Positions 353 to 38,242 of a stretch of 39,540 bases of DNA are shown piece after piece. Where the stretch lies: the IMG/VR virus record IMGVR_UViG_3300048927_000338, positions 1 to 39,540 of that record; one strand, written 5' to 3'. The DNA is from a virus. The notes beneath the pieces are model-generated. The model worked only from the letters and a program-made list of their open reading frames with translations. It was not told where the DNA came from and made no database searches. The translations under genes and the position numbers were made by a program. Positions within the stretch are counted from its first letter, which is position 1, and the number at the start of each line of letters is the position of its first letter.

Positions 353-383
353 GCGCAAAACCCGCGCAAAACTGGCGCAAAAC
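353..383. repeat. three 9-bp direct repeats with 11-bp period
   Basis: GCGCAAAAC occurs at 353-361, 364-372 and 375-383, each copy starting exactly 11 bases after the last, so all three face nearly the same side of the helix. They lie between the tRNA terminator and the integrase stop codon; the last copy touches the stop. Position and phasing are what one expects of arm-type integrase or excisionase binding sites next to attL. The role is inferred. Confidence 0.7.
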
Positions 384-1498
384 TATCCGGTGATTTCGCT
401 GATATTCAGGTCCGGAATTGCCTCGGACCAGATGACTTCCTCGTGGTCACGCTGGTAGTTTTTGGTCATGACTTCGCTCGCGTGGCCAGCGATCTTCTGT
501 CCGTCCTTCCCGGCTTTCTTGTACAGGTGCAGCGACAGCGCTCGCACTTCATGGAAGCCCGGCATTTCTTCTTCCTTCCATCCTGCGTAGCAGCTCGCCG
601 CCTCTCTCGCTTCCTTGAACGCTCGCGTCAAATACCGTTCCTCAACCTTCGTCCAGTGGTCCTTGGTCTGCGCCTGTTTCTGTTTCAGGCGATCGGGCTT
701 CCGGTGCACCAGGTAGGGCGAAGCGGTGTCGTCACGGCAGCGGCTTATCACCGCTTGTAACTCGGGCGTAACCCGAAAGCGGATCCATGCCGCATCACTG
801 GCCTTCGCCGTCTTCTTCTGCACCAGATAGAGAAACCCCTCCCGAACGCCATCAAAGCGCATATCGAGAATGTCGGTGCGGCGCTGGGCGGTAATCAGGG
901 CTAGGTCGATTGCGTTCTGCAGCCAGGCTGGCGCTTTCTCCCTGATGGCTTTCAAGCCATCTACAGTGTGGCGCTTGCGCTGTTTCTTCTCGATGCGATT
1001 GATGGTACTGGCGGCGGGATTGTCCGGGCACAGGCCCTTGGCCGCCGCATGGTTGAATATGTCGATTAGCAGGGCCCGGCACTGGTTGGCCGTGCGCGGA
1101 GTGAGGGCGTCCAGCATTTCCGCAATCATGCGGATCGTGATCTGATCTACAGCCTTGCCCTCGAAATGCTTGCGAAAGCGACGGAAGTGCACGGCGTACA
1201 AAGCCAAAGTGCCCTTGGCCAACTCGCGAGGTGGCAGGACGTCGCCCTCGTATGTGTTGAGGAAGACGGCGAACGTTTCTGAGGCGTTGTTCAGCACAGC
1301 GCCGACCAGGTCAGCGCCACGCATAAACTCCAGGTTCAACTGTTTTGCAGCGTCGATCGCTTTAATGCGGTCGGTCCCGAACTGGAACCACTTCCCATCC
1401 GTGGGCCGACGGTAGCGATAGGTCGAGCGCCGCGTATCGAAGTAGAGGTTCTGCGGGAGGTTCTTGTTCGCAGTATTGCGCGGCCGAGGGACCATCAT
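383..1498 (-). CDS. int: tyrosine-recombinase phage integrase
   Basis: This 371-residue protein carries out integration and, with an excisionase, excision at the tRNA-Pro site. The catalytic set is visible: Arg206 in TAQRRTDIL, a Lys near 229, His316-x-x-Arg319, His339 in AGH and the nucleophile Tyr348. The region before about residue 180 is the arm- and core-binding part. The gene points toward the tRNA, as is normal for an integrase next to attL. Its ATG at 1498 overlaps the stop of the preceding small gene (ATGA), so the two are translationally coupled. A second ATG follows directly at 1495. Confidence 0.93.
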   Translation of the reverse strand: MMVPRPRNTANKNLPQNLYFDTRRSTYRYRRPTDGKWFQFGTDRIKAIDAAKQLNLEFMRGADLVGAVLNNASETFAVFLNTYEGDVLPPRELAKGTLALYAVHFRRFRKHFEGKAVDQITIRMIAEMLDALTPRTANQCRALLIDIFNHAAAKGLCPDNPAASTINRIEKKQRKRHTVDGLKAIREKAPAWLQNAIDLALITAQRRTDILDMRFDGVREGFLYLVQKKTAKASDAAWIRFRVTPELQAVISRCRDDTASPYLVHRKPDRLKQKQAQTKDHWTKVEERYLTRAFKEAREAASCYAGWKEEEMPGFHEVRALSLHLYKKAGKDGQKIAGHASEVMTKNYQRDHEEVIWSEAIPDLNISEITG

Positions 1499-4622: not shown

Positions 4623-6428
4623 TTAAGCTGCTAAACGTTTGTAAAGGTCGATGATGTCGGCGGCATTGGCGCCGACCAACGCTTCGGCTTCGTCCGGACA
4701 GACACTGTTGCCGATCAGTCGGACCTGGTCTGTTTTATTTATTTCACGCCACTCTTCGGCACCAGTTACCGGGTCGACGAACAGGCCTCGGTCGATAATG
4801 TAGTCCTTGTCGAAGCCTTGGGCGGCCTTTAACTCAGGCGGCTGCAGCATGCGCAGGGTGATGTCGACCAACACATAACCGCCGACCATGACCAGGTCCG
4901 CCGGGTCTTTGAAGTGTTCCGGCAGATGTTCGTGCATAAAGGCGGCGCAGCGGCGCGCTCCTTCCAGCTGCTCGGACGTCAGGGTGTCCGGCACCTGCAC
5001 AACTTCGACCAGCGCGACTCGATCTTTCGTCGGCAGGGTATGCATCGGCTCGGTGAGCGATATGCCGTCCTTCTCGTTTCCGTAATACTTCACCAGGTAG
5101 GCGTTCACCAGTCGCTGGTTGGCGCCTGATTGGCAGATGGTTGAGATGGGATCGTAGGCCGAACGGCCGTCACCTTTGTAATACCCGCCATTAGCCTGTT
5201 CGAAGAATGCGGCCGATACCGCGTGATGCCCGGTACTGGTGGCGACCACGCCGAGCGGGCCCGCTACGTCGGCGCCGACCGAACCCTTCCGCAATGTCAC
5301 CATGTTGGCTGCGGCCATCGCAAAGTGCCCACCCTTTACCTGTGCCACTTGAGTTCGCAACGGCTCCTGCACGTCGAAGTTGCGCTGCGACGATCCATTG
5401 GCGCACTCGGTGAGGAACGGCGCCGCTACTGGCTGCACCAATGCGTGATGCGTGCCTCCGGCGCTGATGGTCGACAGCGCTTCGTCGACGCCGTGAGTGC
5501 TGGTGTGCGCCTCAGATGTGCCGCGCATTGGGACAATGAATGGCTTCGCGCTGGTCAGCACGTGTCGCCAGCAACCCTTGGCCACGCGGCGCATGGTGTT
5601 CAGGGCCATCGGCTTGTCCCGGAAGATCGTGCGGCCCAGATTGCTCCAGTCGATGCACTCGGCCGCGGTTCGCCAAGGTTGCTGCTTCGCCGTCGGCACC
5701 TTGTGGCGCTTTGGCGATGGCCAGACTATCGGCTTGCCGTCGCTTCGGGCCACCAGGTACAGGCGCTTGCGGATGGTCGGGGTGCCAGCGTTGGCTGCGA
5801 TGCGCTCGCGCCATTCGACGTTGTAGCCGAGCCCGCGCACCAGCGCTTCCACCGGAACGAAACCGCCAATTGATTCGAGGATATCCGGCATGTCGGGGTG
5901 ATCGGCTGCCAGGCCGGTGCTGAGTGCGGCGATAAACGACTTGAAAGTGCGGCCGCGCTCGGCCTTGATCGGTTGGCCGTCTTCGTCGATAGGGCCCCAG
6001 TCGCAGAACTCTTCGACGTTCTCCAGGAACATCAGGCGAGGCCGGGTGGCGTGCGCCCAGCGAACCACCACCCAGGCGAGCCCGCGAACCCCGCGGTCAC
6101 GCGGTGCGCCGCCCTTGGCCTTGCTGTGATGTCGGCAATCAGGTGAGGCCCAGAGAATGCCAACCGGCTGGCCGCCAGTGGCATGGACCGGATCCACCTC
6201 AAACACGTCCGCAACATAGTGCGCCGTCTGCGGGTGGTTAGCGCGGTGAACGGCCAGGGCGATAGGGTTGTGGTTTACCGCGACATCCGGCTCCCGGTAC
6301 GCCCGGGCTATCCCAGTGCTGGCACCGCCGCCACCGGCGAACAGATCTACCACCAGCTCCTTTTCGAATGGCAAGCCCATACTTGGCTGGCGGTTGATGA
6401 ACTGGGGCAATTTCTGTTCTGCGGACAT
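4623..6428 (-). CDS. DNA cytosine-C5 methyltransferase
   Basis: This 601-residue enzyme should methylate carbon 5 of cytosine. Motif I DLFAGGGGASTG (28-39) binds AdoMet. Motif IV is SPDC (95-98), with Cys98 as the nucleophile in place of the usual PPC; ENV (136-138) is motif VI; RKRLYLVA corresponds to motif VIII and RLIGNSVCP near the C-terminus to motif X. The long middle part should hold target recognition. ATG 6428 has GAGG upstream. It is longer than most bacterial C5 methylases and belongs to a type I associate with phages. Likely role: protecting phage DNA from restriction. Confidence 0.9.
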   Translation of the reverse strand: MSAEQKLPQFINRQPSMGLPFEKELVVDLFAGGGGASTGIARAYREPDVAVNHNPIALAVHRANHPQTAHYVADVFEVDPVHATGGQPVGILWASPDCRHHSKAKGGAPRDRGVRGLAWVVVRWAHATRPRLMFLENVEEFCDWGPIDEDGQPIKAERGRTFKSFIAALSTGLAADHPDMPDILESIGGFVPVEALVRGLGYNVEWRERIAANAGTPTIRKRLYLVARSDGKPIVWPSPKRHKVPTAKQQPWRTAAECIDWSNLGRTIFRDKPMALNTMRRVAKGCWRHVLTSAKPFIVPMRGTSEAHTSTHGVDEALSTISAGGTHHALVQPVAAPFLTECANGSSQRNFDVQEPLRTQVAQVKGGHFAMAAANMVTLRKGSVGADVAGPLGVVATSTGHHAVSAAFFEQANGGYYKGDGRSAYDPISTICQSGANQRLVNAYLVKYYGNEKDGISLTEPMHTLPTKDRVALVEVVQVPDTLTSEQLEGARRCAAFMHEHLPEHFKDPADLVMVGGYVLVDITLRMLQPPELKAAQGFDKDYIIDRGLFVDPVTGAEEWREINKTDQVRLIGNSVCPDEAEALVGANAADIIDLYKRLAA

Positions 6429-8833: not shown

Positions 8834-9508
8834 TTACCCGTGAGTGATGGATAGATCGCTGATAACGCAAATCGAACCGTCCTCAGGATCGGTTGAATCG
8901 GAGTAATCGATCTGGTTGTACACGCCGCCATGGAAAGCGAGAGTCTTCGTGTCCCAGGTGTTGTCGAGGCGCATGATTGCGGAGGTGGATTTGGCGCCGT
9001 TGCAGCTGGCAGATACCGATACGGCGCCGCTCGAATTGGCGTGAATGTTGATTTTGAAGAGTGCGCCGAGTGGCACGTTTTCCAATACCGTCGAGTTGAC
9101 CGGATCGTCTTGCAGGTAGCTCGACCGGAACCCCATGGTGATTTTGCCTTTGTTCCAGAACACCTTGACCGGTGGGCGTTCAGAGCCCTGTACATGAATT
9201 TGGCCGATCACGACCTTCTGCAACGAATTGACCTTCGTCAGCCGCATTTCTTGACGGCACCAATGGTCTGGGGCACTGGCAAACAGCCAATAGCCAGGCT
9301 CTTTCCATTCACAACGAGTTCGATGGACGCTTTTACTGGAAGCACCAAGGGTTGGCGCTGTCATCTGCAGCGATCCGTCAGGAAGCATCGAGATGACGCT
9401 TGGGCATTCGATCAACGCTCGCCATCCGATCAAATCAAGGGAGATAGGATTTGTGTCGGAAATTGGAAGCGGAGTGGCGATGATGAAATTGCTGATATCT
9501 ACAGTCAT
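8834..9508 (-). CDS. polysaccharide lyase family 7 (alginate-lyase-like)
   Basis: This 224-residue protein matches the PL7 jelly-roll lyases, which cleave alginate or related uronates by beta-elimination. The three hallmark blocks are present: Arg65-x-Glu67-x-Lys69 (the usual last residue is Arg), Gln103-Ile-His105, and a C-terminal block ending GGVYNQ with the catalytic Tyr197. The opening DISNF followed by a TPLPIS strand is also typical. There is no signal peptide, so the enzyme would be set free only by lysis. AAGGAA precedes ATG 9508. It lies in the early leftward region, not with tail genes, which is unusual for a phage depolymerase. Confidence 0.82.
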   Translation of the reverse strand: MTVDISNFIIATPLPISDTNPISLDLIGWRALIECPSVISMLPDGSLQMTAPTLGASSKSVHRTRCEWKEPGYWLFASAPDHWCRQEMRLTKVNSLQKVVIGQIHVQGSERPPVKVFWNKGKITMGFRSSYLQDDPVNSTVLENVPLGALFKINIHANSSGAVSVSASCNGAKSTSAIMRLDNTWDTKTLAFHGGVYNQIDYSDSTDPEDGSICVISDLSITHG

Positions 9509-9619
9509 TGTCGATTCCTTATTTCATTGATGTCACCTGTGCTCTGTTGAGCTCTTCGCTTGATGTAGGCCTACATCCCGCTGCCCACTCATCGAATGGG
9601 CAGAAGTGATGCTGTCCAT

Positions 9620-9871
9620 TCAGAGGCGTGGCGCGTCTCGCTGCGGGCCGCCAGGTGCAGGGCCGGCAACATCTGTGGCAGTTACACCCGGGCCAAGGAT
9701 CTTGATGCGGCCCTCGTCGAACCATTCCGACTTCTGCACCTCGTTGATGCCTTGGCGAATCGGCGGTGCCAGGCAGTACTGATCGCAGCCTGTGAGGTAC
9801 TGCGCGCGGCCTGTGATCGTTCCGTAGAAACCGGTGATCTTGTCTTCTGCTTTCTGTCCAAGCTCGATCAT
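9620..9871 (-). CDS. small conserved phage protein, 83 residues
   Basis: ATG 9871 has an excellent AAGGA six bases upstream. The protein has the pattern of a small beta barrel: DKITGFYGTITGRAQYLTG, then a conserved-looking Cys-Asp-Gln-Tyr, then SEWFDEGRI. I remember similar small proteins in many phages and prophages without an assigned role. It sits between the lyase and the LuxR-type regulator in the same direction. Confidence 0.7.
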   Translation of the reverse strand: MIELGQKAEDKITGFYGTITGRAQYLTGCDQYCLAPPIRQGINEVQKSEWFDEGRIKILGPGVTATDVAGPAPGGPQRDAPRL

Positions 9872-9891: not shown

Positions 9892-10284
9892 TTACGCCGC
9901 GCGCTCCAGCGTTTCGGCGCGGCGGGTAATGCGGATCTGGGCGATTCGAACAGATGGTGGCCGACGATCACGGCGGGCGGGTTCGACAGACTGAACGTTG
10001 GTTACAGCGTTCATCGCCATCAGCGTGGCCAGGACAAAGCACATAGGAGAGATGATCTGGCGGCGCATGGCTTCAGCGACCAGAGCTGCACGGCGGGTGA
10101 CGCCGAGCTTGAACATTGCGTTGGTAAGGCGTTTCGCTACGGTGGCCGGCGAGATACCGGCTTCCCGGGCGATTTCCTTTGCGGTCAGCCCAAGGGCAAC
10201 CCACAGCAGGAACTGAAGTTCTCGCGGTGCCAGGCCACGACCGAGGTGACCCTTCCATGCGCCATTTACGATTTCTGATTCCAT
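9892..10284 (-). CDS. LuxR-type HTH transcriptional regulator
   Basis: A protein of 130 residues made of little more than a GerE/LuxR DNA-binding domain: LAPRELQFLLWVALGLTAKE, IAREAGISPATVAKRLTNAM and KLGVTRRAALV follow the four-helix pattern. No receiver or autoinducer domain precedes it, so activity is not visibly ligand-controlled. The C-terminus is Arg-rich and ends at a hydrophobic stretch (PMCFVLATLMAM). GGGAG lies eight bases before ATG 10284. As first gene of the leftward operon behind a repressor-like operator, it is a plausible early regulator. Confidence 0.82.
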   Translation of the reverse strand: MESEIVNGAWKGHLGRGLAPRELQFLLWVALGLTAKEIAREAGISPATVAKRLTNAMFKLGVTRRAALVAEAMRRQIISPMCFVLATLMAMNAVTNVQSVEPARRDRRPPSVRIAQIRITRRAETLERAA

Positions 10285-10591
10285 CGTCGTGACTCCCGGT
10301 TATTTTCCCAATGCACCCGGCCAACCAGGTGCATCAGTGAAACTTTCCGTCCTATTGCCGCCGGAAGGGCGGGGCGCATTGCTTGCCGGGTCATTCACAC
10401 GGTCAGGGCTTGTAAGGGCGTTTCACCTCGAGCAACCGTCCAGGTTATTCCTGTCGTGGGCAGGCTTTCGGGCCTGTCTGCTCGCCGGTCGCCGGTAGAG
10501 GCAATGCGGTCTGTTGTTTATTGCGCTGACTGTTAAAGAGCGGCGGGTCTGTTGAGGCCCTTCGCAGTGGGTATGTCGCTGCGATGGATCT

Positions 10592-10621
10592 AATATGAAC
10601 CAATAGTTCAAATTAGGTCAA
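10592..10621 (-). promoter_or_regulatory. leftward early promoter
   Basis: On the minus strand TTGACC (10616-10621) and CATATT (10592-10597) are 18 bases apart, a good sigma-70 match. It would drive the LuxR-type gene and the genes beyond. The leader of about 300 bases before the first start codon is long and may carry regulation. Confidence 0.65.
10596..10610. promoter_or_regulatory. operator-like palindrome in the leftward promoter
   Basis: TGAACCAATAGTTCA has arms matching at six of seven positions and fills the spacer of the leftward promoter. It is nearly identical to the palindrome over the cI start at 11980-11994. The likely ligand is CI, which would then silence the leftward operon in the lysogen. 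Confidence 0.6.
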
Positions 10622-10690: not shown

Positions 10691-10719
10691 TTTACCGGTT
10701 TGAAACGCTTCGATATAGT
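10691..10719 (+). promoter_or_regulatory. promoter of the DUF1654 gene
   Basis: TTTACC (10691-10696) and TATAGT (10714-10719) are 17 bases apart and about 40 bases before the gene start. The -10 box matches at five of six positions, the -35 at four. Confidence 0.55.
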
Positions 10720-10759
10720 TTATTTGTACTGGATGCATATACAGCAATCGGAGAGTGAA

Positions 10760-11071
10760 ATGTCCAAGGCGAACAAGCAGACAAAACCGGCACAACGACA
10801 AGAAAGAAGCGGGATAGAGCGACTTGGGCTGCGTGTTTCTGAAATGATCAATCACCCCGTGGCGCAGATTCAGCGCTGGGTCACGATTCACCGCTTGGAT
10901 ACGGATGGCGACCGTGAGTGGGAGGAGGTGATGGGGTTGCTCTCCGAAACGGACGGGATTGACATGACATTCAACGACGATGAATCGGTGACGCTGAAGT
11001 GGGAGGCGACCGCTAATGAAGATCGGCCGGTGGAAGTTGTCGAGGAAGTGGAGGAGCCAGCTCCTTTTTGA
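10760..11071 (+). CDS. DUF1654-like protein
   Basis: A protein of 103 residues from ATG 10760, with GGAGAG upstream. The core, beginning IERLGLRVSEMI and continuing TIHRLDTDGDREWEEV, fits the DUF1654 family, which I know from pseudomonads and their phages; function unknown. The N-terminus is short and basic, and the C-terminus very acidic (a Glu/Val-rich tail). It has its own promoter and a terminator directly after it, so it is a single-gene unit next to the repressor and may be expressed in the lysogen. Confidence 0.75.
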   Translation: MSKANKQTKPAQRQERSGIERLGLRVSEMINHPVAQIQRWVTIHRLDTDGDREWEEVMGLLSETDGIDMTFNDDESVTLKWEATANEDRPVEVVEEVEEPAPF

Positions 11072-11084
11072 CCGCCCACAAAAA

Positions 11085-11107
11085 AGCCCGCTCGTTGGCG
11101 GGCTTTC
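11085..11107. terminator. bidirectional terminator between DUF1654 gene and cI
   Basis: AGCCCGC (11085-11091) and GCGGGCT (11098-11104) form a 7-bp stem with a 6-base loop. An A-run precedes and a T-rich stretch follows, so it can stop transcripts of the two convergent genes from both sides. Confidence 0.85.
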
Positions 11108-11123
11108 TGATAGTCACTGAGAT

Positions 11124-11987
11124 CTACACCAGGTTGGCGTTCCACACCAGCAGTACACGCGCCTGAATGAAGGTGTCCTCTGCTCGAATGGTCTCTGGTG
11201 GGTGCCTGGTATTGTCGGAGATCATTTTTAAACGATCATCGCCCATCCACTGAAGCCGCTTGATGTAGAGGTGTCCTTCCCAGGAGAACATGTAAATACC
11301 ATCACCCGCGAATTCGCGGATGCTGATGTCAACGAGGAGGGGATCGCGGTGCTTGATCGTTGGTGCCATCGACTGGCCCCAACCTGTCACCATCTTGAGA
11401 TGGAAGTGTTCCTTGAACTCAACGCCCATCTCGCGCAGATGCTGGGGGCTGACACGAACATCCTGGAGCATTTCTGGATAGTCATGTGGTATTTGACCAC
11501 CGCCCATCGCCGCGCGAACGTCGTAATGCGCGATCCAAACCTCATCACCCATCGCTCCGGGTCGATAGTAGTCAACCTCGATAGCCCCCCCATCGTCGGC
11601 TTCAGCGACTGCGAGCAATCTCCGGCGTGCATCTTCTGACAGGCCTTTGCCTTGCTTCGCAAGCATGTTTCTAACGATTTCAGCCGCCGACTGGCTGTGA
11701 TCATCAGTATCGGTAATTTCAGCCTTCGAAAGCATTGAGAAACCGGGTTCCTCCCCGGCACCATGCTGAAGCCACTCGATTTTCACACCGAGGGCATCCG
11801 CTATAGCGTTCATCTTCGCCGGCCCAGGCAATGACTCACCATTGAGCCATTTGCTTGATGCTTTGGGAGTAACTTTTGCGATTTCCGCCAAACGGGCGCC
11901 TGCCCCCCACTGGTCAATACCGTGGGCGGATAGGGATTTTTTGAGGCGAGCTACAAAAGCCGCACGAATATCTTCTATGTGAACCAT
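11124..11987 (-). CDS. cI: CI-type repressor, HTH plus S24 domain
   Basis: The lysogeny repressor. About residues 5-70 hold a helix-turn-helix (ARLAEIAKV then KASSKWLNG); the C-terminal half is a LexA/CI-type S24 domain with Ser206 in GWGQSMAP and Lys243 in LYIKRLQ, the residues for self-cleavage on RecA activation, so the prophage is probably SOS-inducible. Start set at ATG 11987; an in-frame ATG at 12032 would add 15 residues but lies on the presumed promoter. The chosen ATG lies in the middle of an operator-like palindrome and has only a distant AAGGA, so the start is uncertain. Confidence 0.88.
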   Translation of the reverse strand: MVHIEDIRAAFVARLKKSLSAHGIDQWGAGARLAEIAKVTPKASSKWLNGESLPGPAKMNAIADALGVKIEWLQHGAGEEPGFSMLSKAEITDTDDHSQSAAEIVRNMLAKQGKGLSEDARRRLLAVAEADDGGAIEVDYYRPGAMGDEVWIAHYDVRAAMGGGQIPHDYPEMLQDVRVSPQHLREMGVEFKEHFHLKMVTGWGQSMAPTIKHRDPLLVDISIREFAGDGIYMFSWEGHLYIKRLQWMGDDRLKMISDNTRHPPETIRAEDTFIQARVLLVWNANLV

Positions 11988-11994
11988 TGGTTCA
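11980..11994. promoter_or_regulatory. operator-like perfect palindrome at the cI start
   Basis: TGAACCA-T-TGGTTCA is a perfect 7+1+7 inverted repeat covering the cI start codon. It matches the imperfect copy at 10596-10610. Binding here would let the repressor limit its own synthesis. Confidence 0.65.
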
Positions 11995-12007
11995 GCATCG
12001 CATGTCC

Positions 12008-12037
12008 TTGCATGTACTTTCAGTTCCGACATAATAT
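12008..12037 (+). promoter_or_regulatory. rightward promoter PR with overlapping operator
   Basis: TTGCAT (12008-12013) and TAATAT (12032-12037) are 18 bases apart and drive the Cro-like gene. The -10 box is inside an 11-base perfect palindrome ACATAATATGT (12029-12039), whose other strand (TATTAT) could serve as -10 for the repressor, so the two divergent promoters may share one box. GCATGT is repeated 10 bases apart just upstream (from 12000), a further possible operator. Confidence 0.65.
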
Positions 12038-27626: not shown

Positions 27627-27814
27627 CAACGCAACAGCACGTCAAACCCGCCGTCGGCTGCCTGGTACGCGACCCGGTGACTTATGAGGCTCTACCTGTG
27701 GAAGGCACGCTGGTTGAAATGAACAGTTACTGGGTACGCAAGGCAGCGGCCGGTGACATTGAAATCGTCGAGCCTGCCGTGCAGGACCTGAAACCCAAGG
27801 GTGACAAACAATGA
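27623..27814 (+). CDS. DUF2635 family protein, Mu gp38-like
   Basis: A protein of 63 residues. VKPAVGCLVRDPVT, LPVEGTLVEMNSYWVRK and a charged end match the short DUF2635 proteins that precede the sheath gene in Mu-like phages. The precise function is not known. It is coupled to both neighbours by 4-base overlaps. Confidence 0.82.
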   Translation: MTTQQHVKPAVGCLVRDPVTYEALPVEGTLVEMNSYWVRKAAAGDIEIVEPAVQDLKPKGDKQ

Positions 27815-29283
27815 GCATCGGATTTAACACAATCCCGGGCCCCGGCGCCCTGCGCAAGCCAGGCGTGTACAGCGAGATTGATAACAGCCAGGCGGTGAGT
27901 GGCCCCCAGGCCGTGACTTATCGTCGTCTGTTAATCGGGCAAAAGCTCGTCGCCGGCATTGCGCCTGCGGGCGCGTTGATCCGTATCACCAGCGCTGCAC
28001 AAGCCGACACCCAGTTCGGCGCGGGCTCGATGCTGGCCGGCATGGTCCGTGCGGCTTTGGCCGTTGATAGTTACACCGAACTGCAAGTCATGCCATTGGT
28101 TGATAATGCCGCCGGCGTGGCAGCGACCGGTACCCTGGTATTCACCGGTACCGCCACAGCGTCGGGCACCATCGAACTGATGATCGCTGGCCGTCGTGTA
28201 TCCGTTGGCGTTATCAGCGGCAACACTGCCGCGATCATTGCCACTGCCGTCGCTGCGGCCATCACGGCTGCCACCGACATGCCGGTTACCGCCGCGGCCG
28301 CTACCGGTACGGTCACGCTCACCAGTCGTCATAAAGGCGAAGCTGGCAACAGCATCAACGCACGCGTGAATTACTACGCTGGCCAGGCGCTCCCTGCGGG
28401 TGTGACGCTTGTCATCACTGGGCTGGCCGGCGGCACCAGCAACCCTTCGCTGGCCACGGCACTGGCCGCTATCGGTGATGAGTGGTTCCACGCCTGGGGC
28501 GTCGCGTATTCCGATGCCGCAACGTTGGCCGAGCTCAAGGTAGAGCTGGATAGTCGCTTTGCCTGGGGCCGTGAAATTGAGGCGCATGCCTTTACGGCTG
28601 CACGCGGTACCCAGGGTACGCTCAGTGCTCTGGGGCGAACCCACAACAATGAGCACCTGGTCATCGCGATGGCCAACGACGAGCCGATGCCGGCTTACGA
28701 AAAGGCTGCTGAAACGATGGCGATCGCTGCGTATTACGCGGCCATTGATCCAGCTCGTCCGATTCAGAACCTGCCTTACGTGTGGTGCCTGCCACCGGCA
28801 GCTGCCAATCGGCTGACTAACCAGGAGCGCAACCTGCTGTTGTTCGACGGCATCGCGACCACGAAGGTGAGCTCCGATGGCGTGATGCTCGCCGAGCGTT
28901 TGATCACCACCTACAAAACCAATGCAGCTGGCGCATCGGATATCAGTTACTTGGACAGCGAAACGCTGTTCACCCTGATGTACATCCGCCACGACTGGCG
29001 CGACTACATCCTGCGCAAGTACCCGCGCCACAAACTCGCCGACGACGGCACCCGTTACGGCATCGGTCAGGCAGTAGTCACCCCGGTGGTGATGAAGGCA
29101 GAAGCCATCGCCAAGTTCCGCGAGTGGGAGGATTTGGGCTTGGTGGAGAACATCGACGACTTCAAGGCCAACCTCATTGCCGAGCGCAATGCCAGTGACC
29201 CGAACCGGATGGATGTGCTCTTGCCGCCGGACCTGGTCAATCAACTGCGGATCGTCGCCAACAAAATTCAGTTCCGCCTGTAA
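27811..29283 (+). CDS. contractile tail sheath protein, Mu gpL-like
   Basis: A protein of 490 residues. FNTIPGPGALRKPGVYSEID at the start, then a domain with Ala/Thr/Gly-rich inserts, YRRLLIGQKL and the C-terminal IRHDWRDYILRKYPRHKL are typical of Mu-type sheath proteins. The sheath wraps the tube and contracts to drive it into the cell. Its presence shows that this phage has a myovirus tail. The Ala/Thr-rich middle is probably an exposed domain. Confidence 0.92.
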   Translation: MSIGFNTIPGPGALRKPGVYSEIDNSQAVSGPQAVTYRRLLIGQKLVAGIAPAGALIRITSAAQADTQFGAGSMLAGMVRAALAVDSYTELQVMPLVDNAAGVAATGTLVFTGTATASGTIELMIAGRRVSVGVISGNTAAIIATAVAAAITAATDMPVTAAAATGTVTLTSRHKGEAGNSINARVNYYAGQALPAGVTLVITGLAGGTSNPSLATALAAIGDEWFHAWGVAYSDAATLAELKVELDSRFAWGREIEAHAFTAARGTQGTLSALGRTHNNEHLVIAMANDEPMPAYEKAAETMAIAAYYAAIDPARPIQNLPYVWCLPPAAANRLTNQERNLLLFDGIATTKVSSDGVMLAERLITTYKTNAAGASDISYLDSETLFTLMYIRHDWRDYILRKYPRHKLADDGTRYGIGQAVVTPVVMKAEAIAKFREWEDLGLVENIDDFKANLIAERNASDPNRMDVLLPPDLVNQLRIVANKIQFRL

Positions 29284-29308
29284 CGGCGGCGGCCAGGAGA
29301 AATAGAAC

Positions 29309-29677
29309 ATGGCAGGCAAAAACCGCATCGGCGGCATCATCGCCTTGAAGGTCAACGGCGATATGTACTTCGCCAAGGGCAACTTCACCTACAACCTGGG
29401 CAAGCCCAAGAAAGAGGGTGTGGTCGGTAGCGATCGCGTCCACGGCTACAAAGAAGTGCCGCAGGTGCCTTTCATTGAGGGCGAGATCACCGACCGCAAT
29501 GAGTTGGATCTGGAAGATCTGGTCACCCTTGATGACGCCACTGCCACGCTGGAACTGGCCAACGGCAAGGTCATCATGCTGCGTGAGGCCTGGTATGCCG
29601 GCGAGGGCACCGGCAACACCGAAGAGGGCAACATTGCTCTTCGTCTCGAAGGCATGTCGGCTGAGGAGGTTCGCTGA
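29309..29677 (+). CDS. tail tube protein, Mu gpM-like
   Basis: A protein of 122 residues with AGGAGAA upstream. RIGGIIALKVNGDMYFAKGN opens the beta-sandwich fold of Mu-like tube proteins, and ATLELANGKVIMLREAWYAG follows. It polymerises inside the sheath. Its stop and the next start overlap (TGATG). Confidence 0.9.
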   Translation: MAGKNRIGGIIALKVNGDMYFAKGNFTYNLGKPKKEGVVGSDRVHGYKEVPQVPFIEGEITDRNELDLEDLVTLDDATATLELANGKVIMLREAWYAGEGTGNTEEGNIALRLEGMSAEEVR

Positions 29678-29979
29678 TGGCAAAGGAAAAAGTTATCCAG
29701 TTGGTCGAGCCAGCGGAGTTTGGCAAGCAATCCTTCACCGAGGTCACCGTCACCCGGAAGTTGAAGTACCTGCGTGGACACGCGCTACGCATTACCTCAG
29801 ACGGCAAGGGCAGCGGTGGCGTCGACATGGACTTCGCCACCCTGATTGACCTGGCGGCCAAGATGGTTGGTCAGCCTCCCGCCATGATCGAAGAACTCAG
29901 TGAGGATGATCAGGCGGTCCTGATTCAGGAAGCCCGAGATTTTTTACTGAAGCACCTCGGGGGTGGGAGTCAGGAGTGA
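29677..29979 (+). CDS. tail assembly chaperone, gp41/gpE-like, frameshift donor
   Basis: A protein of 100 residues in the reading frame as written. LTRKLKYLRGHALRI-like and FATLIDLAAKMVGQPP segments fit the phage tail assembly protein family (Mu gp41, P2 gpE). Near its end is the heptamer T-TTT-TTA at 29940-29946 in the right frame for -1 slippage. A fraction of ribosomes should therefore produce a longer protein of 142 residues: 90 from this gene and 52 from the next frame. The long and short forms would coat the tape measure during tail assembly. Confidence 0.88.
   Translation: MAKEKVIQLVEPAEFGKQSFTEVTVTRKLKYLRGHALRITSDGKGSGGVDMDFATLIDLAAKMVGQPPAMIEELSEDDQAVLIQEARDFLLKHLGGGSQE
29940..29946 (+). 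other. programmed -1 frameshift site TTTTTTA
   Basis: Codons read GAT TTT TTA, which gives the canonical X-XXY-YYZ heptamer. After a slip of one base back, the frame ACT GAA GCA continues without a stop to TAG 30102-30104. An AGGA at 29927-29930 lies nine bases upstream, like the stimulatory Shine-Dalgarno of dnaX. The overlap of the two frames fits known lambda G/GT and P2 E/E' arrangements. Confidence 0.8.
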
Positions 29980-30104
29980 CTGTCGTCGTCAAGGTGATGG
30001 GCGTTCAGCCCACGGAAGTCATGGAAATGGATTTCGAACAGCTGGACTGGTGGCTTGAACGCACTGAGGAATGGGTCGGATGGCAAACAAAGGATACTCC
30101 CTAG
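29976..30104 (+). CDS. tail chaperone extension, gpE'-like
   Basis: This frame can be read as a 42-residue product from GTG 29976, which overlaps the previous stop as GTGA, or, more likely, as the C-terminal part of a frameshift product beginning at 29946. It has the [19 protein letters not shown] block that resembles P2 GpE. In lambda, P2 and Mu the equivalent part is made only by frameshifting. Whether the free GTG start is also used cannot be decided here. Confidence 0.75.
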
Positions 30105-31927
30105 ACGTCGTCATCAAGGCTGTCGACAAGCTCACCGCCCCATTGCGCGGCATTTTCTCCAAGGTTAAGCAGGCCAGCGCCGGTGTGTCCGGCGCACTTG
30201 ATCGAACTGGCCTGCCAGTGTTCGCGAACAGCCTCAAGGGTGTTGGTGGCGCTATTGGCGGAATAGGTACTGCCGTCAGTTCAAGTGCGAAGAGAATCTT
30301 GGGGTTGGGCGCGACACTAGGCATCACCGGTGCCGCCTTGAATCTGTTCTTCCAGGGGTTCGCTGATGCCACTGGCGCGATCGGCGACACCGCCGAGCGC
30401 ACGGGCATCAGCCGTGAGAGGTTCCAGGAGCTGAGCTTTGCGGCGAAGCTGACCGGTGCCTCTGCCGAAACCTTGGGCGGTGCCCTACAGAAAATGCAGA
30501 TCAACGTCGGTAAGGCGACGGCAGGCTCGAAAGACCTGAAGGATATGTTCAAAGGTTTGGGCATCAGCATTAAAGATTCGTCCGGCAAGCTGAAAAGTAC
30601 CGATGCCTTGTTCGATACGTTCGTTGACCGAATCTCCAAGATCAAAGACCCGTCTTTGCAGGCGGAGGCGGCGGTGAAGATTTTCGGTAAAAGCGCTACC
30701 GAGTTGCTGCCACTGATCCGTGGCGGTGGTGCGGGCATCAAGGACATGGCGGACGAAGCTCGTCGCCTGGGTATCGTCATCTCCGATAGCGCTGTGCGTG
30801 AGGGCGAGACCTTTGGTGACACACTGGACACACTCCGTGCAGCTCTGAGTGGGGTTGGCAATTCAATCGGCAGCTCGCTGGTGCCTCAGCTGAACATTCT
30901 TGGCTCGAAGTTAATCGACAACATCGTCAAGTACCGACCGCAGATCGAGGCGTTCGCAACTTCTTTCGCGACGGATCTGCCCGGTAACATCGAAAAAGTC
31001 ACAGGTTTCGTCGGTGATCTGTACGACGGAATCGAACCTTTGATCAGCCTTGTCGGCGATCTGAGTGACGTGTTCGGCGGCGCCAATCTGATTTTCGCGG
31101 CGCTCGGTTTATATATCGGCGGCGGGCTGGTGATGAGTGTTCTGAACCTGGCGCTCGCCTTGAAGGGCCTGGGCGTAGCAATTGCGCTCACTCCGGTCGG
31201 CTGGTTCCTGGGCGCGGTTGTCGCGATCGGTGCAGCGGCGTTTGTCATCTACCGAAATTGGGGCAGCATCGTCTCGTTCTTCACTGAGAAGTGGGCTGGC
31301 GTGAAAGCGGCGTTCAGCGACGGCATCATCAACGGCATTGTAAAACTTTGGCTTGAGTACAACCCGGTCACCTTGATGATGGAGGCTTTCAACGGGCTGG
31401 TTCAATACCTGACCGGTTGGGACCTCAGTGCAATCATTGGGGCCAAGTTCAGCGCCATTGTGAAGGTTTGGAGCGAGAACAACCCGGTCACTTTGATGCA
31501 GGAGTCCTTCGGGGGCCTGATCAAATATCTGACTGGGTGGGACCTGGGAGCAATCCTCGGCTCAAAAATCTCGGATGCCGTTGCGGCGATAAAAAATGGT
31601 CTGCCCGACTGGGCGAAAAAGCTGCTGGGTATCGACGATGCCTCGATGGGTGACGCGACGGGTAATGAGCCCGGAAACTCCAACGTTGCCGCAGCTTTGG
31701 CCGCCGATCCAAACGCAGCACTTGGGCCTCGTCGTTCAGTCAACGAGCTGGGCCAGCGCGCAGCTCAGGTCGGTCAGATCGCTGCGCAGGCAGTCGAACA
31801 GCCAACTCAAAAAGTGCTGGTGCAAGTCGACATGAACAACCTGCCGCCAGGCACCAAGGTTAAAACCGAGGGCAGCCAGGGCGCGACGTTCGACACCGAC
31901 CTCGGTTACTCAATGATGGCCCCCTAA
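30080..31927 (+). CDS. tail tape measure protein
   Basis: A protein of 615 residues from ATG 30080 with GAGGA nine bases upstream. The N-terminal part ([20 protein letters not shown]) and the [20 protein letters not shown] repeat-like region are typical of Mu-like tape measures. Two hydrophobic stretches around 345-395 ([36 protein letters not shown]) could cross the host membrane during injection. The tandem motif [20 protein letters not shown] appears twice, about 40 residues apart, an internal duplication. The length sets the tail length: at about 1.5 angstroms per residue roughly 90 nm. Confidence 0.92.
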
Positions 31928-31939
31928 CCGGAGTTTTCC

Positions 31940-33247
31940 ATGACTTGGCGAGACACCTACCGCGCTGCGACTTTTCGCGGCGTGGCCTTTTTTGTGGAAA
32001 GTGCGGACAGCAGCCACGGTCGGCGTCAAGCCGTGCACGAAACCGCGCAGCGCGACACTCCGTACACCGAAGACCTGGGTCGAAAGTCCCGCGAGTTTTC
32101 GGTCATCGGTTACCTGCTCGGTAAGGACTACCACCTAAACCAGGACGAACTGATCAAGGCCTGCGAGGTCGCGGGCCCGGGTGCTTTGGTTCACCCGTAT
32201 CGCGGGGAAATGAACGTTGTTTGTCGTGGCCTGAACATCAGCGAGAGCGCGGCTGAAGGCGGAAAGTGCACGATCGCCCTCACCTTTTTGGAGGCAGGGG
32301 AGGCGGCCTACCCGTCGGCGAACGTTGATAGCGTCAATGCGATCAGCGCCAAGGGCAACACCGTCACCGCTGCGGCAGAAAAAAGCTTTGTGTCTGACTT
32401 CCTGACCACAGGATTTCCCGCCTACGTAGCGGAATCTGCTGCGTCCGGGCTGGCAGCCCTGGGTGAGTACATGGCGGCGCCGGGCTTGAGCTTCTCCAGC
32501 GACTTGAAGGCAGCGTCTGACTTTTACCTGCAAGCGCGTGGACTTGCATCCGACGCTTCAAGTTTGGTCCAGAAGCCACTGAATATGGTCAGCCGTATCA
32601 CAGGCTTGATCGGTTCGGTCCGCTCAGCTTTTGGAACAAACGCTTTCAGCATGCTGACCAGTTTGTTTGACCGGTCGCCGACAACCTATACGGGCAGTAC
32701 CGCGACGCCAAGCCGCCAGCAGCAGGCCACCAATGCAATTGCGATGAATGCACTGGTGCGCCAGGTGGCTGTAGCCGAGGCGGCCAAGGCGGCGGTCGTC
32801 ACGCAAACCCCGGTGGTTACAACGACGAGCACCACGCAGTCGACGCAGGGGGCAGCGTCGGCAACGACGGGAGCAACTCAGACGGCGCCCGGTGTTACCC
32901 AAACACTCCCTGTTCCAACCGTTTACGATAGCTACCAGGCAGCAATCAAGGTCCGTGAGGATTTGGTCGACCGTATAGAAGCCGAAAGCGAGGTCACTCC
33001 GAACGATGAGGTGTACGTCGCATTGTCTGATTTGCGAACGAGTGTGGTTCAGGCCGTGCCAAATCCTGAGCAAAACCTTGCCCGGATTGTTCAATACGTA
33101 CCGCGAGAAACGTTGCCTTCCCTGCTGGTGGCTTATCAGATCTACGGCGACGCCGGCCGCGCAGATGACATCGCTACGCGCAATTCAGCGAGACATCCAG
33201 GGTTTTTAACGGGCGGACAACAGCTCGAGGTACTCGCAGATGGATGA
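31940..33247 (+). CDS. DNA circularisation / baseplate protein, Mu gpN-like
   Basis: A protein of 435 residues. TWRDTYRAATFRGVAFFVES, then REFSVIGYLLGKDYHLNQD and the GPGALVHPYRGEMNV block, match the N-terminal domain of the DNA circulation protein family, which is a baseplate-hub-associated protein in Mu. Residues about 250-310 form a Thr/Ala/Gln-rich low-complexity stretch. The stop overlaps the next start by 8 bases. Confidence 0.85.
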   Translation: MTWRDTYRAATFRGVAFFVESADSSHGRRQAVHETAQRDTPYTEDLGRKSREFSVIGYLLGKDYHLNQDELIKACEVAGPGALVHPYRGEMNVVCRGLNISESAAEGGKCTIALTFLEAGEAAYPSANVDSVNAISAKGNTVTAAAEKSFVSDFLTTGFPAYVAESAASGLAALGEYMAAPGLSFSSDLKAASDFYLQARGLASDASSLVQKPLNMVSRITGLIGSVRSAFGTNAFSMLTSLFDRSPTTYTGSTATPSRQQQATNAIAMNALVRQVAVAEAAKAAVVTQTPVVTTTSTTQSTQGAASATTGATQTAPGVTQTLPVPTVYDSYQAAIKVREDLVDRIEAESEVTPNDEVYVALSDLRTSVVQAVPNPEQNLARIVQYVPRETLPSLLVAYQIYGDAGRADDIATRNSARHPGFLTGGQQLEVLADG

Positions 33248-34364
33248 CTTGGAGCTGCTGGTCAACGGTATGAAATACGCCGGCTGGACTTCTCTTGGGG
33301 TCACCCGCGCGATCGATGCGGCAACCACGGCCTTCACGGCAACGTTCACCGAAAAATGGGAGGCGGGAAACAGATCGCTGGCACAAGTAGAACCCTGGCC
33401 GATTCTCCCGGGTGATGCGTGCGAGGTCAGGCTGGCCGGCTTTCCGATGGTGATCGGCTACGTGGATATTTTCAAGCCGTCCTACAGCGCGAACGACCAC
33501 ACGATCAATGTGCAGGGCCGGGATAAGGTTGCCGACCTGGTGGATTGCAGCGCCGTGCACGCCCCGGATGAATGGAAAAACATCGATCTGCTCAAGTTTG
33601 CGCAGATCCTCGCGGCTCCGTTCGGCGTGACGGTGAAGGCGGATATAGCCGTTGGTGAGCCATTCCAGGTCTGCAAGCTTCAACAGGGTGAAACAGCCTT
33701 CAAAGCGATCGAGCGCTACGCCCGGCAGCGCAAGGCGCTGTTAATGCCTGACGGCGCTGGCGGGTTGTTGATTACCCGCGCCGGCGTTCGGCGCACCACA
33801 ACTGCGCTTGTGCAGGGTGAAAACATCCTCAATGCCATCGGTACCATTGATCACAGCCAGCGGTTCAGTAACTACCAGGTGAAGGGTCAGGCAAGTTACA
33901 GCCCCGACAGCACCGGAGAAACCGAGGCTCACATCGAAGGCAGCGTTACCGACAGCGGCATTAGACGTTATCGACCAATGCTGCTGGTCGCCGAGATTGG
34001 CGGCACAACAGCAAGCCTGCAGGATCGCGCCACGTGGGAGGCGAACAGCCGAATTGGCAAGTCCGCTGCTGCCAGCGTTTCAGTCTATGGGTGGCGGCAA
34101 AGCCCGGGCGGAGCACTGTGGGAGCCCGGCATGCTGGTCTATGTCCGTTCGTCCTGGCTACGCATGGACGGGTGGATGCTGATTCGCCAGGTCACTTACG
34201 AGCGCGGCGAAGGCGGGACCACGGCCAAGCTTGAGATCGTCAGCCCGCAGGCCTTCGACCCTGAGCCACCAGACGGTAAGAAAGCGAAAAAAACGAAGGC
34301 CGGCAAAAAAGGCCAGCGCAACATTTGGGCCGAGGCCATTGGCGAAGAGGATCCACCGAAATGA
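33240..34364 (+). CDS. baseplate hub protein, Mu gp44 (gpP)-like
   Basis: A protein of 374 residues, close to Mu gp44 (379). DDLELLVNGMKYAGWTSLGV, then the INVQGRDKVADLVDCSA block and YARQRKALLMPDGAGG, are typical of the gp27-like hub that holds the spike. The C-terminal 35 residues are Lys-rich (KKAKKTKAGKKG). It is coupled to the next gene by ATGA. Confidence 0.9.
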   Translation: MDDLELLVNGMKYAGWTSLGVTRAIDAATTAFTATFTEKWEAGNRSLAQVEPWPILPGDACEVRLAGFPMVIGYVDIFKPSYSANDHTINVQGRDKVADLVDCSAVHAPDEWKNIDLLKFAQILAAPFGVTVKADIAVGEPFQVCKLQQGETAFKAIERYARQRKALLMPDGAGGLLITRAGVRRTTTALVQGENILNAIGTIDHSQRFSNYQVKGQASYSPDSTGETEAHIEGSVTDSGIRRYRPMLLVAEIGGTTASLQDRATWEANSRIGKSAAASVSVYGWRQSPGGALWEPGMLVYVRSSWLRMDGWMLIRQVTYERGEGGTTAKLEIVSPQAFDPEPPDGKKAKKTKAGKKGQRNIWAEAIGEEDPPK

Positions 34365-34876
34365 GGGAAGCGCTCCGCGAGATTGGCAGCCGCGTAATGA
34401 TGATGTTCTCCCGTGGCGTGCTGCGGGGCGTCAATGATTCCGGCCCCAGGCAGCAGGTGCAGGTTGAGCTGCTCAAGGACGAACTGCGCGATGGCCTTGA
34501 GCACATGCAGAACTACGGCTTCACCAGTCACCCACTCGGCGGTGATGTAGCGGTCGCTTTTTTGGGCGGCAACCGGGAGCAGGGGATTGTCCTCGTTGTC
34601 GATGACCGTCGGTACCGCATCCCCTTGCGTGCCGGTGAGGTGGCCATCTACGACGACCTGGGCAACAAGGTCGAGTTGCTGCGCGAGATGGTGAAGGTGA
34701 CGGCGGTTCAGCACCTTGAAGTGGTGGCGCCGACGATCAAGGTGGTGGGCGATCTAGAAGTGATCGGAGACATCACCAGCACCGGCACCGTCACGAACAA
34801 TGGCAAGGACATCGGTAGCACCCATAAACACGGCGGGGTTACTGCCGGCAGTGGAAACTCAGGAGTGCCGATCTGA
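34361..34876 (+). CDS. baseplate spike protein, Mu gp45-like
   Basis: A protein of 171 residues. The N-terminal OB-fold region (SRVMMMFSRGVLRGVNDSG, then AFLGGNREQGIVLVVDD) leads to a beta-helical needle (VEVVAPTIKVVGDLEV, then ITSTGTVTNNGKDIGS). His155-Lys-His157 near the tip is the HxH motif that in related spikes binds an iron ion at the point. The trimer pierces the host outer membrane when the sheath contracts. Confidence 0.9.
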   Translation: MREALREIGSRVMMMFSRGVLRGVNDSGPRQQVQVELLKDELRDGLEHMQNYGFTSHPLGGDVAVAFLGGNREQGIVLVVDDRRYRIPLRAGEVAIYDDLGNKVELLREMVKVTAVQHLEVVAPTIKVVGDLEVIGDITSTGTVTNNGKDIGSTHKHGGVTAGSGNSGVPI

Positions 34877-35343
34877 TGGCCGATGCTGCAATGGTAATGA
34901 CCGAAAACGGCGGGGAACTGGTTTTGGCTGCTCTCGATCTGGCGCGTGATGACGGCTTGGAGACGGCGGTCATCATCAGTCTCTTCACCGATCGCCGAGC
35001 CAGCGCTGAGCAGCTCCCCGTGGAGCTCCCGCAGGATGATCTGCGTGGTTACTGGGGTGACATCAGTAATGCGACGCCGTCGGACCAGACCGGATCGCTG
35101 CTTTGGCTGCTCGCGCGAGAAAAGCAACTTCCGCAGATCCTTGGACGCGCTCAGCAGTATTGCCGGGAGGCACTGGCCTGGATGGTGGAGGACCTGGTCG
35201 CGACCCGCGTTGAGGTGACCGCTGAGTTTGTCGCCCAAGGCTGGATGCTGATTCTCGTAGACATTTTCCGGCCAACCGGGTCACCGGTTCGCTATCGATT
35301 CAACTATGAATGGGCGGCTCAAGCCGCGAAGAGGTCCGCCTGA
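34876..35343 (+). CDS. baseplate wedge protein, Mu gp46-like
   Basis: A protein of 155 residues that follows the gp45-gp46-gp47 order of Mu. DLARDDGLETAVIISLFTDR and the later LRGYWGDISN block are typical of the GP46 family, which corresponds to gp25-like baseplate wedge components. It overlaps both neighbours (TGATG at each end). Confidence 0.85.
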   Translation: MADAAMVMTENGGELVLAALDLARDDGLETAVIISLFTDRRASAEQLPVELPQDDLRGYWGDISNATPSDQTGSLLWLLAREKQLPQILGRAQQYCREALAWMVEDLVATRVEVTAEFVAQGWMLILVDIFRPTGSPVRYRFNYEWAAQAAKRSA

Positions 35344-36401
35344 TGCCATTTGCTCGACCAACTTTGACCGAGCTGATCGAACGCGTCATTGCCGATATCA
35401 GCAGCCGGGTAACGGGCGTCGACGGTGCTGTGCTGCGGCGATCGCTGCTCGGAGTTATCGGCCAGTCTGAGGCCGGCGCGGTCCATTTGCTGTACGGCTT
35501 TCTGGATTGGATCGCCAAGCAGTCGATCATCGACACGGCCGAAAAGGAGTATCTCGAGCGCTGGGCGGCTATCTGGAAGATCACCCGAAAAACCGCCGGT
35601 TTCGCCAGCGGCCAGGTTGCATTCTCCGGGGGCCCCGGTTCGACCATTGTCGATGGCACTATTGTGCAACGGCAGGATGGTGTCCAGTACAAGGTACTCG
35701 GCGATGCGGTGTTCGGTGCCAGTCCGTTGTCTGTACCCGTGCTGGCCTTGGAGGCGGGGGAGGCCGGGAATTTTGGAATAGGGTTACCGATCTTCCTGTT
35801 GTCCCCGATTGCTGGCGTCCAGTCGACAGGAACGACTGCAACCAAGATCGAGGGCGGTGTCGACACGGAGTCGGATCAACGCTTGTTGGCCAGGCTGCTG
35901 GCGCGAATTCAGCAACCTCCGCACGGCGGCGCGGATTTTGATTACCAGATGTGGGCTTTGGAGGTGGCCGGTGTAACCCGGGTCTGGGTGTATCCGCGCC
36001 AGATGGGCGCCGGTACCGTGACAGTCCTGTTCGTCTGTGAAGACCTTCCGGACATCATTCCAACACCGGCCAAAGTCGCCGAGGTCCAGGCGTACATCAA
36101 CGCCCGACGTCCGGTCACTGCCGAAGTGTTTGTGGTCGCACCCATAGCCAATCCGCTCAACATGACTATCAAGCTGCAGCCGAATGCCGCTGCCGTCCGC
36201 GCAGCCGTCACCGCCGAGCTTGCGGATCTGATTGCGCGGGATTCGAAACCCGGCGAGCCGATCCTGATCAGCCGGCTGCGGGAATCGGTATCCCTGGCAG
36301 CGGGCGAAGCGGATAACGCGATCGTCACACCGACAGCCGACGTGCCTCATGCAACCGGGCACATGGCCACGTTGGGAACACTTACCTTTTCCAGCTTCTA
36401 G
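35343..36401 (+). CDS. baseplate protein J-like, Mu gp47-like
   Basis: A protein of 352 residues from ATG 35343. FARPTLTELIERVIADISSR at the start and the FASGQVAFSGGPGSTIVDGT and DTESDQRLLARLLARIQQPP segments fit the baseplate J/gp47 family, the wedge component that forms the ring around the hub. A C-terminal LISRLRESVSLAAGEADN segment is also typical. Confidence 0.92.
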   Translation: MPFARPTLTELIERVIADISSRVTGVDGAVLRRSLLGVIGQSEAGAVHLLYGFLDWIAKQSIIDTAEKEYLERWAAIWKITRKTAGFASGQVAFSGGPGSTIVDGTIVQRQDGVQYKVLGDAVFGASPLSVPVLALEAGEAGNFGIGLPIFLLSPIAGVQSTGTTATKIEGGVDTESDQRLLARLLARIQQPPHGGADFDYQMWALEVAGVTRVWVYPRQMGAGTVTVLFVCEDLPDIIPTPAKVAEVQAYINARRPVTAEVFVVAPIANPLNMTIKLQPNAAAVRAAVTAELADLIARDSKPGEPILISRLRESVSLAAGEADNAIVTPTADVPHATGHMATLGTLTFSSF

Positions 36402-36409
36402 GGGGCTCA

Positions 36410-38233: not shown

Positions 38234-38242
38234 GAAAACGAC

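Follow-up and report, generated by a model that had tools for sequence, protein, structure and literature searches.

A PL7-family lyase gene in a putatively CI-controlled early operon of temperate Pseudomonas phages, and the two-stem element in its leader

Biochemical work has described phage alginate lyases of 30-37 kDa (PMC5380687), and PL7 genes are already annotated in a few Pseudomonas phages. The PL7 consensus comprises the blocks RxExR, QxH and YxKAGxYxQ (PMC8618178, PMC9345997). The first and third of these help to bind the substrate on the plus side of the cleft (PMC9345997), and QIH in the second is said to accompany a preference for poly-G or poly-MG, with many exceptions (PMC8618178). 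Among cellular enzymes, the biological role of PA1167 of P. aeruginosa has been stated as unknown (PMC4444821) and, elsewhere, as a possible fail-safe (PMC8829089). The gene described here lies in a virus-derived stretch of 39,540 nt, referred to as the window (IMG/VR record IMGVR_UViG_3300048927_000338), and is a variant of this known phage alginate-lyase kind. The part of the locus furthest from what is described is a 45-nt two-stem element in the leader of the gene, which many Pseudomonas phage genomes share and which appears not to have been described before.

Identity and active site of the lyase

8834-9508, minus strand: PL7 (Alginate_lyase2) lyase gene, 224 aa (PF08787, AF2, Foldseek, dN/dS)

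The open reading frame occupies exactly these positions from an ATG start. A sequence-only reading had recognised a PL7 lyase by its motifs and proposed a profile search and a structure prediction, and both bear it out. The product matches PF08787 (Alginate_lyase2) over the entire profile (1-225 of 225) with E=9.2e-40 and 137.3 bits, where the Pfam cut-off of this family is 29.7 bits, which is well beyond chance. The AlphaFold (AF2) model has a mean pLDDT of 90.6 and the beta-jelly-roll fold of PL7, and PL7 lyases top the Foldseek list: PA1167 (1vav) is the best match at TM 0.82, A1-II' comes next in the ranking, and AlyA and other PL7 lyases also score high. The protein further falls into a phage protein cluster without an assigned function (E=4e-142), and NCBIfam contained no model matching it.

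The catalytic set Arg/Gln/His/Tyr corresponds to R65, Q103, H105 and Y197, which are invariant in alignments A1 and A2; together with E67 and Q199, they are also invariant among 19 aligned relatives including PA1167. R65/E67/K69, Q103/H105 and Y197 are thus found where the earlier reading had placed them. Its view of the Arg-to-Lys change at position 69 as a peculiarity of this gene finds no support, as Lys69 is common to the whole close clade and invariant in all relatives of at least 54% identity (Met in the Peetri phages and Arg in PA1167). The same clade carries His193 in place of the Lys in the third block, a change which that reading had overlooked. The complete RxExR and YFKxGxYxQ blocks, which are typical of PL7 but do not define it, are missing here: the lyase reads RCEWK, QIH and AFHGGVYNQ, and we read the departures in RCEWK and AFHGGVYNQ as a subfamily trait. 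Since the two changed blocks are those involved in plus-side substrate binding, an altered specificity is a fair guess, and the substrate preference may therefore differ.

These clade-wide replacements of the usual Arg and Lys in the '+' subsite blocks (PMC9345997), together with the second PDB match, the glucuronan lyase 7nde of PL7 fold, suggest that the enzyme could be directed against another polyuronate such as glucuronan or could have an altered specificity for alginate. PA1167, by contrast, is the best match in sequence as well as in fold, and the hosts belong to Pseudomonas, a genus with known alginate production. We give this possibility a minor chance and regard the gene product as a PL7 uronan lyase, probably with alginate as substrate.

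The placement in the control region, as proposed earlier, is also confirmed: the lyase is located in the leftward operon between cI (11124-12032, minus strand) and int (383-1498, minus strand), away from the tail region on the plus strand (27811-39178). The gene has neither a tail-gene neighbourhood nor a virion-attachment domain, and its position and single-domain make-up rule out a plain annotation as tail depolymerase. A virion-associated depolymerase would find a precedent in Peetri-like phages, in which a relative adjoins a minor tail gene. However, the lyase is a single jelly-roll domain of 224 aa that offers nothing for attachment to the virion, and the tail genes of the window belong to another operon on the opposite strand, which makes such a function very improbable indeed. 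The tail region of the window encodes a contractile tail (sheath, baseplate).

Repressor control, release and selection

The leftward region contains the following features, starting from cI.

11980-11994, no strand assigned: second exact operator TGAACCATTGGTTCA, at the start of cI (palindrome scan)
11124-12032, minus strand: CI-like repressor with S24 peptidase domain (PF00717, E=1.6e-15; Ser in GQSM, Lys in YIKRL)
11079-11104, minus strand: terminator-like hairpin 3' of cI (GCCCGCCAACGAGCGGGCTTTTTT), which parts cI from the lyase operon (from sequence)
10592-10621, minus strand: PL-like leftward promoter TTGACC-18-CATATT (promoter scan, 9/12 matches)
10596-10610, no strand assigned: CI-type operator TGAACCAATAGTTCA over the leftward promoter (exact TGAACN5GTTCA palindrome)
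10531-10542, minus strand: putative boxA-like site CGCTCTTTAACA, by its resemblance to a nut boxA
10461-10476, minus strand: putative boxB-like hairpin CAGGC-CCGAAA-GCCTG
9892-10284, minus strand: operon gene 1, GerE/LuxR-type HTH protein (PF00196, E=6e-12; phrog_3282, E=8e-51)
9620-9871, minus strand: operon gene 2, 83-aa ORF (phrog_16275, E=2e-27)
9516-9520, minus strand: Shine-Dalgarno AAGGA of the lyase, 7 nt 5' of the ATG
383-1498, minus strand: integrase at the far end of the leftward region (PF00589, E=2.6e-9; PF09003, E=2.8e-11)

Leftward from cI, the terminator-like hairpin is followed by the promoter with its operator, the boxA-like site, the GerE gene, the 83-aa ORF and, as third gene of the operon, the lyase. 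As in a CI/PL-type early operon, the leftward promoter of the window follows a CI-like gene and is covered by an operator. As about 2 promoter-like sites with 9/12 matches are expected by chance in the scan, the overlap with the operator is the stronger argument for this promoter. Exact copies of TGAACN5GTTCA occur twice, at the leftward promoter and at the start of cI, and if up to one mismatch is allowed, 9 sites are found where 1.03 are expected. As to a promoter of its own, such as a lysogenic-conversion moron would use in the prophage, the lyase leader holds only one 9/12 promoter-like site, which overlaps the start codon. The linkage to a CI-type repressor is recurrent, with a CI homologue upstream of the lyase on the same strand in 31/31 phage loci in which BLAST found a CI; the integrases found in phage loci lie nearly all downstream of the lyase. 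The earlier proposal that the lyase is tied to prophage induction is strengthened by the exact operator palindrome that overlaps the leftward promoter and recurs at the start of cI, and a predicted induction of the lyase upon prophage derepression is well supported.

Some further observations concern this region. A tRNA gene (203-276) adjoins the integrase and is the likely attachment site, and two DNA methyltransferase genes, of N6/N4 type and C5 type, are located at 1753-2874 and 4623-6428. Between cI and the leftward promoter, a 123-aa ORF (10700-11071, plus strand) runs antisense to the operon; its cluster is present in 35/85 compared loci.

The earlier reading had also noted the lack of a signal peptide. 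This absence stands, as judged by a simple hydropathy and charge check rather than SignalP: the N-terminus MTVDISNFIIATPLPISDTN lacks K/R in residues 1-8 as well as a hydrophobic core resembling that of a signal peptide. It is no special trait, because the cellular enzyme PA1167 lacks a signal peptide in the same check, so that its absence is not unusual for a PL7 enzyme of Pseudomonas. Without a signal peptide, the lyase would be released only at lysis. Among the window proteins scanned, no lysis gene was recognised; the record stops after the tail fibre gene with no recognised lysis gene, and may therefore be incomplete.

PA1167, the closest solved relative, with no signal peptide and a role that is unknown or proposed to be a fail-safe, could also point to a lyase that acts within the envelope or the cytoplasm, as would PA1167 and PA1784, and clears misplaced alginate. 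No export route is known for the lyase or for PA1167, though, and CI control is a poor fit with housekeeping, and we consider such a function quite improbable.

With somewhat better than even confidence, we therefore favour an accessory PL7 lyase of temperate Pseudomonas phages that would be repressed by CI in the lysogen, expressed early upon induction and released by lysis to cut alginate and aid spread. In the lysogen, CI would shut the leftward promoter and thereby keep the lyase off. Upon induction or infection, the GerE regulator, the 83-aa ORF and the lyase would be transcribed early, possibly with antitermination via the boxA-like site, and the lyase would accumulate in the cytoplasm. 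Phage lysis would then free the enzyme, and cutting of the alginate around the cell would ease escape and spread of the progeny. The family, the fold, the catalytic residues, the purifying selection, the place in the operon, the operator at the promoter and the repeated linkage to a CI-type repressor are computed results, and each step as far as derepression is based on sequence; activity, substrate, timing, release and benefit are inferred from them. Several points count against this explanation: the RCEWK and AFHGGVYNQ blocks depart from the consensus, no lysis gene was recognised among the window proteins scanned or next to the solitary chromosomal modules described below, and acetylation shields bacterial alginate from most lyases (PMC4444821). 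Moreover, CI of the window possesses both residues of the S24 dyad, Ser and Lys, but has no obvious Ala-Gly cleavage site, the canonical Ala-Gly being absent at the expected place.

The lyase gene was found in 50 viral contigs, in most of them at 89-99% identity, and close copies also occur in Pseudomonas genomes. Relatives of at least 51% identity are present in 53/298 sampled Pseudomonas species, where they form two groups (82-98% and 51-63%) besides one truncated copy at 87%, and in 0/228 other genomes sampled from the class. The chromosomal relatives of 54-60% that were read stand alone amid ordinary genes. Jumbo phages carry relatives of about 60% (58% in Psa21), and P. putida phages (Peetri group) have relatives at 36-40%. 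With a median dN/dS of 0.045 for 41 phage copies and 0.054 for 16 chromosomal copies, the lyase is strongly under purifying selection. The repressors at the phage loci show 31-92% identity to CI of the window while the lyases are mostly 89-99% identical, which argues that the lyase moves between backgrounds.

Several Pseudomonas chromosomes retain just the S24 repressor, terminator, promoter with operator palindromes, leader and lyase, with repressor and lyase intact (e.g. L062, L065, L066, L070 and L075, and as another group L054, L055 and L060), followed downstream by ordinary genes, e.g. GTP cyclohydrolase I. Remnant palindromes such as AATATGGGAACACCCATATT lie over a TTGACA promoter, and TAGCAGCACTGCTA is found in the other group; the half-sites AATATGGG...CCCATATT are conserved and the spacer is variable. 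Self-cleaving repressors have Ala-Gly, Ser and Lys sites, all of which are present in the L066 repressor. In L062 and L066, a short ORF 3' of the lyase resembles by eye the end of a tyrosine integrase, with no Pfam match, and because of this ORF the solitary modules are probably prophage remnants. Since the same gene is found under two different operator types, it can be argued that damage-inducible control is selected, and the simplest reading is that switch and enzyme are together under selection. There is no lysis gene beside the lyase in the solitary chromosomal copies, and release there would therefore need another lytic element.

Such modules open up the possibility of a lyase that serves the host as a repressor-controlled, damage-induced public good: a few lysing cells would loosen the matrix for their kin, and the phage would be only the vehicle. 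In favour of this, several Pseudomonas genomes keep an intact repressor and lyase at a shared chromosomal site next to a gene for GTP cyclohydrolase I, where the other phage genes have been lost and an apparent integrase remnant is left, and the low dN/dS of the chromosomal copies fits as well. On the other hand, most close copies reside in phages together with other early genes, and relatives are also found in lytic jumbo phages. We therefore give the host-serving role an appreciable but minor chance.

The two-stem element and its cassettes

9509-9614, minus strand: conserved leader moving with the lyase among unrelated contexts (alignment A4, 84% mean column identity, 36 loci)
9571-9614, minus strand: two-stem element copy 2 (model R1), before the lyase (cmsearch 50.2 bits, E=5e-12; in the training alignment)
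10301-10345, minus strand: two-stem element copy 1, before the GerE gene (cmsearch 57.2 bits, E=5e-14; in the training alignment)
9562-9577, minus strand: 16-bp palindrome GATGTAGGCCTACATC, specific to the lyase leader; its hairpin could compete with the outer stem of the element
9541-9552, minus strand: third possible hairpin GCTC-AACA-GAGC, 5' of the ribosome-binding site (36 loci, no variation in the stem)

The 105 nt 5' of the lyase are conserved across phages and chromosomes, and the DNA further upstream is unrelated. At the 5' end of this leader lies the element of 45 nt, in which an outer stem of 5 bp leads via an internal loop to an inner stem of about 7 bp that is capped by a short loop. 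The internal loop reads UCACU / GGGA and is invariant apart from one sequence with G for the A of UCACU. In 58 distinct sequences, standard pairs fill 93.9% of the pair cells compared to 67.7% after shuffling, and the covariation score is 0.634 compared to 0.171 (sd 0.015) in shuffled alignments and at most 0.106 with a slid partner arm. As the sequences were chosen by a search that requires pairing, the paired percentage is inflated, and the stronger argument comes from compensatory changes, which are varied and affect either stem, and from 287 matches against 11 in reversed sequence. The latter ratio, together with the shuffled and slid controls, rules out chance hairpins. The two extra hairpins of the lyase leader show little or no covariation. 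The left arm of the palindrome GATGTAGGCCTACATC is part of the outer stem of the element, and the two exclusive folds are calculated at -34.9 and -34.6 kcal/mol; with so little covariation, switching between alternative leader folds is speculative.

In 201/230 distinct contexts, the element is followed by a start codon with a Shine-Dalgarno sequence, at a median distance of 20 nt (quartiles 17-25.5) and in front of about 65 protein families. Every copy in the 36 lyase loci searched is on the lyase strand. The element occurs in 76/149 Pseudomonas species, and an order-wide sample yielded only two genomes, both of which are also in the Pseudomonas set. Annotated phages carry it as well, phi297, MD8 and phiPSA1 among them, mostly within unannotated DNA. 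At E up to 1, no Rfam model matched the element, either in the window or in three further loci, and in open-access papers we found nothing on its loop sequence or on structured RNAs of Pseudomonas early operons. A leader confined to the lyase was likewise rejected: the palindrome scan returned lyase contigs only, and the element hairpin itself is part of a far larger family. Nor is the element obviously a CsrA/RsmA site, its GGA being located in the stem junction. Phage CsrA/RsmA-like genes were seen behind the element in 11 contexts (the L171:2148 region and ten others). One variant of the element, GATTTCACTGGCTGGCCTTGGCGACAGGGCCAGACGGGAAATC, precedes many unrelated genes and recurs in almost the same form in at least 120 viral contigs (L103-L221, e.g. 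L013:4723-4767). A lyase relative of 61% identity (G030:C1:250044-250869) has the element 116 bp upstream, and the association of element and lyase may therefore predate the close phage clade.

In more than 40 loci, homology to the window begins at about -105, the 5' end of the element, and in loci with the other element type it starts just 3' of the element. Among pairwise comparisons, 301/753 from several gene families start at most 5 nt from the 5' end of the element, which describes a trend and not a probability, as these pairs are not independent. The element often marks the 5' boundary of a cassette. Just short of even confidence, we propose that the lyase is one payload of cassettes in temperate Pseudomonas phages, in which the 45-nt RNA would head each early leftward accessory cistron and affect its expression, and its DNA would be a place of recombination. 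The element may act as RNA, as recombination site or as both. It could explain swapping and expression of accessory genes in Pseudomonas phages, and it provides a handle for finding further accessory genes.

Comparison with known systems

If our explanation is true, breakdown of a matrix polymer of the host is coupled to induction in a common group of Pseudomonas prophages, and some bacteria have kept just switch and enzyme. Whether phage or host profits from matrix lyases released by lysis would then become directly testable.

PA1167 (1vav) resembles the lyase in fold (TM 0.82), in size (223 aa), in the missing signal peptide and in the Arg/Gln/His/Tyr set. However, the two share only 24-28% identity, and PA1167 reads RSELR and YFKAGLYLQ where the lyase has RCEWK and AFHGGVYNQ; moreover, PA1167 is cellular, and no repressor adjoins it in the annotated region that was seen. 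Like the window, Psa21, the Peetri group and AH02 are Pseudomonas phages with a PL7 gene that stands alone (58%, 36-40% and 28-29% identity). In contrast to the window, these are large phages or have the gene in a non-homologous setting (in a tRNA cluster, by tail genes or by lysis genes), and they lack a CI-linked cassette and, within the regions searched, also the two-stem element. Phage-borne alginate lyase activity has been reported for PT-6 (37 kDa) and an Azotobacter phage (30-35 kDa); these enzymes are known by activity, the gene not being determined in that review (PMC5380687), whereas the virus of the window is temperate. With the lambda-type PL operon, the locus has in common cI, an operator-covered leftward promoter, a boxA-like site, accessory genes and int as the last gene, and it differs in that its first few cistrons can each bear their own copy of the two-stem element.
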